Positions 40,589 to 63,231 of a stretch of 64,000 nucleotides of DNA are shown one piece after another. A program made the position numbers and the translations under genes. Where the stretch lies: positions 1-64,000 of the forward strand of contig NCBV01000005.1 of NCBI GenBank assembly GCA_002279355.1. The letters run 5' to 3'. The notes beneath the pieces are model-generated. The model was not told where the DNA came from. It made no database searches and worked only from the letters and a program-made list of their open reading frames with translations. The DNA is from Acidiphilium sp. 37-60-79 (lineage in GTDB: Bacteria > Pseudomonadota > Alphaproteobacteria > Acetobacterales > Acetobacteraceae). The stretch's first letter is position 1, and the number at the start of each line of letters is the position of its first letter.

Positions 40589-40623
40589 TTGACGACGGGT
40601 GAAAACAAGAACAAAATAAGAAC
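40589..40623 (+). promoter_or_regulatory. Promoter with LexA (SOS) box directly against the imuA start codon
   Basis: GAAC at 40609-40612 and GAAC at 40620-40623 are separated by exactly seven bases, matching the alphaproteobacterial LexA site (GTTC-N7-GTTC on the other strand). TTGACG at 40589-40594 is a good -35; the AT-rich middle of the box then falls at the -10. The last base of the box touches the ATG at 40624, so transcription would start about at the start codon. Confidence 0.8.
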
Positions 40624-62047: not shown

Positions 62048-62284
62048 TCAAAGTGCTGCGAGGCAGGGGCAGAGGCTGGTCTCGGCCCGCTGCACCGTCG
62101 CAACGCGAGCGCCACTTGCGCTCGACGCCATCAAGATATCGCCAGGTGCCATCAGATCCCCTGCATCGGCAAAATATCCCGCTTGATCGAGCAGATCGAG
62201 CGCATCGTTACCAGCCCGATAATGCCAGAGGGTGAAACCGTTTGCATAAGCCAACACCGAAAGATTGCGCAGAGTAAAAGCCAT
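62048..62284 (-). CDS. Small conserved protein with LSVLAYANGFTLWHYRA motif
   Basis: The protein has 78 residues. From memory, the motif RNLSVLAYANGFTLWHYRAG followed by a Gly-Tyr-Phe...GD..(L/I)M pattern recurs in small hypothetical proteins of alphaproteobacteria and phages. Its role is not known to me. The ATG at 62284 has AGGAG eight bases upstream, which supports translation. It is convergent with flgH (20 bases) and divergent from the S24 repressor gene. The last 18 residues (VQRAETSLCPCLAAL) look variable. A perfect palindrome lies 57 bases upstream of its start. Confidence 0.7.
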   Translation of the reverse strand: MAFTLRNLSVLAYANGFTLWHYRAGNDALDLLDQAGYFADAGDLMAPGDILMASSASGARVATVQRAETSLCPCLAAL

Positions 62285-62328
62285 GACGAAACTCCTGTAA
62301 GAATGGGATGATCTTGAGTTGAACCGGA

Positions 62329-62358
62329 CCTATGTGATTTATAGGATTATTATCCTAT
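62329..62358. promoter_or_regulatory. Candidate repressor operator upstream of the small protein gene
   Basis: ATAGGAT-TATT-ATCCTAT (62341-62358) is a perfect inverted repeat. A third half-site CCTAT lies at 62329-62333, seven bases away, in the reverse sense to ATAGG. On the minus strand the palindrome overlaps a TATAAA-type -10 area. The S24 repressor encoded next door is the natural candidate to bind it. Confidence 0.55.
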
Positions 62359-62463
62359 TTCTAGCCAAATCAAAAGGCGGCCCCGTGCTCTGCGCCGGTA
62401 ATGGGCGCCCTGCCCTCGCCCAACGATACGATCCTGACCTCATCAGCGTCTCTCCGTTAAAAG

Positions 62464-62478
62464 GAACATAACAAGAAC
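62464..62478. promoter_or_regulatory. LexA-type (SOS) box upstream of S24 repressor
   Basis: GAAC (62464-62467) and GAAC (62475-62478) are separated by seven bases, ATAACAA, the same pattern as the imuA box. It lies 105 bases upstream of the S24 gene ATG. A weak CATAAAT -10 follows immediately. Confidence 0.65.
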
Positions 62479-62583
62479 ATAAATACCAGAGGTTGTGCGT
62501 TTGGCAAGTGAAATCGGAACATTTTCCTAAATTTTTTCCTGCCAGCCCTAGAAATCACCCTAAATTACTGTAGAAACAAAATC

Positions 62584-63231
62584 ATGCGGCACGATGAACT
62601 ATGGCGCGCGATCGACACACTGGCCGCCGAGCGCGGTCTCTCGACGTCTGGCCTCGCCCGTGCGGCCGGGCTCGATCCAACCAGTTTCAACCCATCCAAG
62701 CGGCGAGCGCGCAATGGCCTGCCGCGCTGGCCCTCCACCGAGAGCATCGCCAAAATCCTCGCGGCAACCTCGATCTCACTCGATAATTTTGCCGCGCTGG
62801 TCGCCGGCGCCCGTGCGCTCGGCCCGCGAATAGCAGATTCGCGGGCCCGCAAAATCCCCGTCATCGGCGTCGCGCAGGCCGGGCAAGATGGCTATTTCGA
62901 TGATGCGGGTTATCCGGTGGGCGGCAGTTGGGAGCAGGTTGATTTGCCCCAAAATGCCGATCCCAACGCCTATGGGTTGCGCATCAGCGGCAATTCCATG
63001 GAGCCGGTTTATCGCGCGGGCGACATTGTCATTGTCGCGCCGCACGCGACCGCGCGTATTGGCGATCGAGTGATTGCGCGCACCCGAGCGGGCGAGGTGA
63101 TGGCAAAAATCCTCACCCGCCGCACCGCGACCGAAATTGATCTCGCCAGCTTCAATCCGGAACATCCGCCACGCCGCATCGCCCTGGCCGATCTCACCGC
63201 TTTGCACCGGATCGCTTGGGCCAGCCAGTAG
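62584..63231 (+). CDS. S24-family LexA/CI-like transcription repressor with HTH domain
   Basis: This 215-residue protein has an N-terminal helix-turn-helix domain (about 1-75, ISLDNFAAL end) and a C-terminal S24 peptidase domain. The catalytic Ser138 lies in GNSMEP and the Lys175 in EVMAKILTR. An Ala-Gly cleavage site fits AQAG (residues 97-100). Such proteins cut themselves when RecA is activated, relieving repression. The HTH is of XRE type, unlike LexA proper, so it is more like a phage or mobile-element repressor, yet no prophage genes surround it. A LexA box lies upstream. The gene is followed 39 bases later by pyrB. Confidence 0.88.
   Translation: MRHDELWRAIDTLAAERGLSTSGLARAAGLDPTSFNPSKRRARNGLPRWPSTESIAKILAATSISLDNFAALVAGARALGPRIADSRARKIPVIGVAQAGQDGYFDDAGYPVGGSWEQVDLPQNADPNAYGLRISGNSMEPVYRAGDIVIVAPHATARIGDRVIARTRAGEVMAKILTRRTATEIDLASFNPEHPPRRIALADLTALHRIAWASQ

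Follow-up and report, generated by a model that had tools for sequence, protein, structure and literature searches.

The window, by which we mean the whole 64,000-nucleotide stretch of Acidiphilium sp. 37-60-79 DNA analyzed here, carries a divergent pair of genes coding for a 78-residue protein and an XRE/S24 repressor. We interpret this locus, at a probability of roughly 70%, as the reduced form of a domesticated, vertically inherited GTA-like system with the S24 protein as its CI-type master repressor. The computed basis for this reading comprises an operator shared by the two genes, a conserved LexA box, synteny in relatives, gene distances that track those of the host and a predicted protein fold, from which we infer DNA-binding, cleavage, induction, antitermination and present-day capsid binding. 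A preliminary description had likened the locus to a switch of the lysogeny type that lacks phage structural genes. This came close, in that relatives carry structural genes behind the same switch, but a Cro-type gene divergent to the S24 gene was not found: its place is taken by a gene with a decoration-type fold in the window and by one with a Q21-like fold in the relatives.

The divergent pair and its control region

Read directly from the sequence, the two genes, the 299-base gap between them (62285-62583) and the two motifs within it, namely a LexA-type box and a perfect palindrome, are all as previously described; the S24 gene itself sits just upstream of a pyrB-like gene, and the nearest named loci of the same genus belong to Acidiphilium. 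The features of the locus are:

62048..62284, minus strand: small gene, an ORF of 78 aa, relative of phrog_18004 with a predicted decoration-type fold
62341..62358, no strand assigned: operator O2, the perfect palindrome ATAGGAT-TATT-ATCCTAT, upstream of the small gene, covering its predicted -10
62342-62357, no strand assigned: O2 core TAGGA-N6-TCCTA, part of the palindrome
62346..62373, minus strand: predicted small-gene promoter TTGATT-16-AATAAT, from a consensus scan (9/12 matches)
62464..62478, no strand assigned: LexA-type box GAAC-N7-GAAC, GAACATAACAAGAAC (minus strand GTTCTTGTTATGTTC), conserved in position and core in relatives
62479..62507, minus strand: putative leftward promoter read from the sequence, with -35 TTGCCA (62507-62502), about 17 nt of spacing and -10 ATTTAT (62484-62479)
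62514..62529, no strand assigned: operator O1, TCGGA-ACATTT-TCCTA, before the S24 gene, presumed autoregulatory site
62584..63231, plus strand: S24 repressor gene, an ORF of 215 aa (PF00717, E 1.2e-19; phrog_4 repressor, E 4.2e-24)

The S24 protein retains the Ala-Gly cleavage site (QAG), the catalytic Ser (SGNSM) and the Lys (MAK), and both the cleavage site and the Ser/Lys dyad are conserved in most of 14 aligned S24 proteins. Its HTH is weakly matched by HTH_26 (E 0.04), the match to phrog_4, a transcriptional repressor, spans residues 14-214, and a PDB sequence search with the protein returned nothing relevant.

The pairing is widespread in the family. Across 249 family genomes, 68 of the 84 strong small-gene matches (in genomes with a listed S24 gene) adjoin that gene, all 68 divergently; in a second set of named genome contigs, a few members of which overlap the first, the S24 gene was found at 69 of 80 loci and is divergent in each (69/69). 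The preliminary description had named loss of the pairing or the palindrome in relatives as grounds for giving up its reading, and since this search found both conserved, the locus escapes that objection.

The O2 palindrome, with 14 fixed bases, is the sole match in the 64-kb window even when up to three mismatches are allowed, and the 3.07-Mb genome has a single copy of its TAGGA-N6-TCCTA core. O1, which has the same geometry, had gone unnoticed. We scored the operator as TAGGA-Nx-TCCTA with at most two mismatches and spacers of 2 to 10, against shuffles. At spacer 6, it was recovered in the first set upstream of 29 of 40 small genes (shuffles 2.1) and 29 of 45 S24 genes (shuffles 1.9), and in the second, after removal of congeneric loci and those overlapping the first set, upstream of 62 of 73 and 55 of 64, respectively (shuffles about 4). 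There is a clear peak at spacer 6 alone; spacer 7 shows a smaller excess upstream of S24 genes (19/64, second set). Because a short gap makes the two upstream sets overlap, the operator was also counted separately by layout. Where a middle gene intervenes (gap >500 nt), it is present in 33 of 39 small-gene and 30 of 39 S24 upstream regions; at loci with the layout of the window, 23 of 30 gaps hold at least two sites, which in most cases flank the LexA box. The typical order in the latter, counted from the S24 start, is O1 at 53-69 nt (kept there in most of these loci), the LexA box at 95-119 nt and O2 at 126-138 nt, the last distance being that of short-gap loci. Some genera lack the operators or the box, or have them with more mismatches.

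An operator common to the small gene and the S24 gene is what would be expected if the S24 protein binds both. Two natural tests are consistent with such a link: in G007 (L034) the catalytic Lys of the S24 protein is replaced by Arg, in G003 (L047) the S24 match is in two pieces, and in each case both operators are lost and the LexA box is kept. The earlier suggestion that the repressor controls the small gene gains a candidate operator common to both, with the S24 protein as its presumed binding partner. Likewise, the placement of the palindrome over the small-gene -10 agrees with a consensus promoter scan (1 found versus 0.4 expected). The extra CCTAT half-site is indeed present at 62329-62333, but it is not kept in G009, the closest relative, and so may be due to chance; we dropped it as a third operator.

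As for LexA, the bare GAAC-N7-GAAC pattern means little by itself because it is common genome-wide (46 occurrences versus 91 for a reversed control); the box is credible because its position and core sequence are conserved and a similar box precedes imuA-imuB-dnaE2. The exact box lies between the genes at 42 of 69 loci of the second set and at 26 of the 30 with the window layout. GTTC-N7-GTTC is the reported alpha-proteobacterial LexA motif (PMC3323433), and the genome encodes a canonical LexA (TIGR00498, 171 bits, above cut-off). Within the same window, the LexA-type box of the imuA-imuB-dnaE2 cassette (40609-40623) directly abuts the imuA ATG. The locus resembles the alpha-proteobacterial LexA regulon (PMC3323433) in that a box of the right form stands at the start of a promoter, as at imuA, in a genome encoding a canonical LexA; it differs in that the target gene derives from a phage and is predicted to have a dedicated repressor besides LexA.

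The preliminary description missed that the box lies downstream of a leftward promoter. It starts directly 3' of the leftward -10, as it does in relatives (e.g., TTGCGG-17-TAGTAT-GTTC), and a TTGC-N17-TA..AT promoter is found at the same place in congeners; the -10 in the window is a weak consensus match that was not scored in the promoter scan. Moreover, in three congeneric draft genomes (G001, G004 and G008), in which the small gene was not detected, the S24 gene is kept and the LexA box is absent. Since the box directly follows the leftward -10 and is missing from these three genomes, LexA control of the small-gene side appears more likely than control of the repressor. The circuit proposed earlier places the repressor gene under LexA and the small gene under the repressor, and DNA damage would then raise the repressor and lower the small gene. 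It can draw on the presence of both box and palindrome between the genes, with the box 106 nt upstream of the S24 start. However, a conserved leftward promoter has that box at its start, O1 is closer to the S24 start than the box is, and the three congeners keep the S24 gene, not the box; hence, we regard this circuit as very improbable and its proposal of LexA control over the repressor as unsupported.

Phage structural clusters behind the same switch in relatives

A phrog_3437 capsid gene is present in 61 of the 249 family genomes, and of 64 capsid matches, 52 lie no more than 9 kb from this S24 gene in divergent orientation, in nearly all cases at a distance of 3-5 kb. In 22 genomes of 20 genera the neighborhood is syntenic: the S24 gene is followed, in the opposite direction, by a middle gene and genes for portal, capsid, two tail proteins, a fibre and a terminase. 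The control regions of these 22 clusters display an exact LexA box in 16 and the operator in 18 cases, and in 16 the operator lies over the -35 of the promoter before the portal gene. There is also a second, unlinked locus, where the operator precedes a fibre-type gene that includes the small-protein domain, and a long tailspike-like gene comes next (15/17). Examples of the cluster beside the S24 gene, which spans about 12 kb and looks GTA-like and inherited, are L330:2009-14569 (in G015), L329, L331, L332 and L351-L368; the fibre/tailspike locus behind the S24 operator and a leader is seen in L018, L019 and L334-L350.

The distances of the cluster genes track those of the host aconitase, the one host marker used (Mantel r 0.56-0.82, with 0/1000 permutations as high), which speaks for vertical inheritance. 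It might instead be held that these are ordinary active prophages re-infecting one attachment site, the window being a decayed prophage end. The full head, tail and terminase gene set and the close relatives among viral contigs would fit such a history, but position and gene order are the same in 20 genera with distances tracking the host gene, no integrase or replication gene is present among the ORFs annotated in the clusters (an annotation that is not exhaustive), and the fibre locus is unlinked yet stands behind the same operator; we therefore consider it improbable. Contigs L148, L140, L149, L154 and L160 of the viral collection resemble host chromosome or the inherited clusters of relatives and not free phages; L148 contains the S24/small-gene pair itself.

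In G066, the whole cluster is present with the small gene directly 3' of the capsid gene. This arrangement, the phage gene order and the fact that some congeners have the middle gene suggest that the direction of change was loss of the structural genes and not their gain. Structural and packaging genes are thus a property of the 22 relatives; we do not file the window locus as a GTA, since a major capsid gene of this type is missing from its genome.

The middle gene, absent in the window, lies between the S24 gene and the phage cluster in relatives and has a conserved part of about 105 aa; it is unannotated at L366:2409-2723 and in relatives. Its product has no family match in Pfam, NCBIfam or PADLOC. 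Its structural model (pLDDT 91.9) aligns with the phage antiterminator Q21 at Z 7.8 and 6.6, the next unrelated fold being at 2.1, and Foldseek gives E 5.5; as a single fold family with Z under 8, this is only suggestive of a Q21-like antiterminator. The region before the small gene agrees with that reading: in many relatives it forms a leader with, in order, the operator over the -35, a hairpin, a C/U-rich stretch, an intrinsic terminator and the start codon. Compensatory changes occur in 10 of 15 pairs, and Rfam yielded no match. Of 39 loci that have the Q-like gene, 32 show the terminator, as against 2 of 30 that lack the gene, these loci being related and not phylogenetically independent. 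The leader is seen about 110 nt before the small gene in L012, L051, L076, L078 and others and is absent in the window species. An independent sRNA was also considered for this element; given the neighboring Q21-like genes, a late-promoter leader with terminator fits better.

The small protein and its retention

The small protein belongs with phrog_18004 (E 4.3e-9), a family of unknown function, and has no match in Pfam, NCBIfam or PADLOC. An AlphaFold model from 34 sequences (pLDDT 89.7) has as its best Foldseek match 9eg4_H from the LME-1 phage capsid (E 4.8e-4, TM 0.81), with structure comparison giving Z 11.4 and an rmsd of 1.7 over 75 residues; the next match is at Z 5.1 (VIA). This chain is "orf16" of Legionella phage LME-1, present as seven chains alongside seven chains of the major capsid protein, and presumably decorates the capsid; orf16 has 269 aa, of which about 89 residues are in the model. 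By sequence alone, there is no secure link between the two: a PDB search with a profile of the window family found nothing relevant, and one including the phage homologues ranked 9eg4_H first at a non-significant E of 0.16. In the phage homologues, the gene is directly 3' of a major capsid gene (phrog_3437) and is followed by a tail gene, and the adjacent capsid protein matches that of LME-1 (E 2.7e-27); among annotated phage records, there is a single distant homologue. The window genome has no phrog_3437 capsid match, and its small gene is thus not next to a capsid gene. The role earlier left blank can be narrowed to a predicted capsid-decoration fold. In comparison with the LME-1 capsid (PDB 9eg4), the predicted fold equals the ordered orf16 domain and the major capsid proteins of the relatives are homologous; unlike orf16, the window protein is that domain only (78 aa), encoded by a stand-alone chromosomal gene in a genome without the capsid gene.

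The dN/dS of the small gene is 0.04-0.39, and 0.10-0.17 against unsaturated congeneric copies, which indicates purifying selection; conserved coding by itself says only that the protein is used. Our best guess is that in the window species it most likely still binds the capsids of related podophages. A rival reading is an exapted defence: whenever SOS induction and the growth of a prophage or phage fall together, the decoration protein would coat and spoil LME-1-like podophage capsids, serving as a decoy for the head fibre of the phage itself. The gene is indeed stand-alone, with intact coding under purifying selection and SOS-linked control, and only the capsid-bound domain has been kept, as against the 269 aa of orf16 and the fibre-locus homologues, which are mostly about 216 aa. 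Yet it has no PADLOC match, does not lie in a defence island, and any other use of the protein would give the same pattern; we accordingly see this defensive role as unlikely, if worth bearing in mind.

Alternatively, the locus could be a relic, its repressor kept for another target or for immunity against related phages and its small gene a functionless late gene hitchhiking along. In support of this, the S24 gene persists in the three congeners without the small gene and occurs well beyond the family, and loss of the cluster appears common. Against it are the purifying selection on the small gene, the conservation of its operator and LexA box across genera that have long been without the structural cluster, and the single occurrence of the operator core in the genome, due to which no other perfect S24 target was found. 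A relic, too, is in our judgment an unlikely account.

A proposed switch and its parallels

Under our preferred reading of a reduced, inherited GTA-like system, S24 dimers would bind TAGGA-N6-TCCTA at O1 in their own promoter and at O2 in the small-gene promoter, and LexA would sit on GTTC-N7-GTTC, covering the start of the leftward promoter, so that two locks would keep the small gene off. DNA damage would activate RecA, upon which LexA, and probably the S24 protein too, would be cleaved and the small gene expressed. In relatives, the same switch would control the gene for the Q21-like antiterminator and the late promoters, whose -35 elements are each covered by the S24 operator; these promoters would serve the portal, major capsid, tail, fibre and terminase genes and the separate fibre/tailspike locus. 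In the window species, the structural genes would have gone and the switch and the decoration gene would remain.

We see the closest described parallel, by analogy, in the control of the Caulobacter GTA, where RogA represses GafY and GafZ, which regulate a domesticated, inherited phage cluster with accessory genes elsewhere in the genome, and GafZ, discussed beside Q21, is an antiterminator that reads the GTA cluster past a terminator (PMC11150451, PMC13236601). Shared with it are a predicted repressor over an inherited phage cluster, unlinked accessory genes and a putative antiterminator. The differences are that the repressor here is of the S24 type with a cleavage site, that late promoters are themselves overlain by its operator, that there is a LexA box, that the capsid is of the LME-1/phrog_3437 type and that the window species lacks the structural genes. 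The lambdoid CI-Q-late promoter switch is another likely counterpart, with a CI-type S24 repressor, a Q21-like gene and, in the relatives, a late promoter followed by a terminator before the late genes. Unlike in that switch, no Cro was found, a LexA box lies on the early promoter and the system is host-inherited; further, the Q-like gene, the leader and the terminator are absent in the window species.

In the literature searched, which covers subscription journals little, we found no earlier description of this system under Acetobacteraceae LexA/S24, the LME-1 capsid, host decoration proteins or Acetobacteraceae GTAs. We tentatively propose, at somewhat less than even odds, that it represents an undescribed class of inherited Acetobacteraceae GTA-like particles, with an LME-1-type capsid, podovirus tail genes and a terminase, whose switch would combine LexA with a dedicated CI-type repressor and a Q21-like antiterminator and reach several unlinked loci. 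On this proposal, lineages including Acidiphilium and Acidocella would have lost the structural genes and kept the switch and the decoration protein for a new use, such as interference with phage capsids.

What at first sight is a two-gene locus can be tied to a regulon of phage origin that spans several loci and has been retained in more than 20 genera. The S24 protein, as its predicted master repressor with a defined operator, would offer a direct route to switching the system on. The locus also raises the question of why a bacterium should keep a lone capsid-decoration gene under what may be a double SOS lock after the capsid itself was lost.
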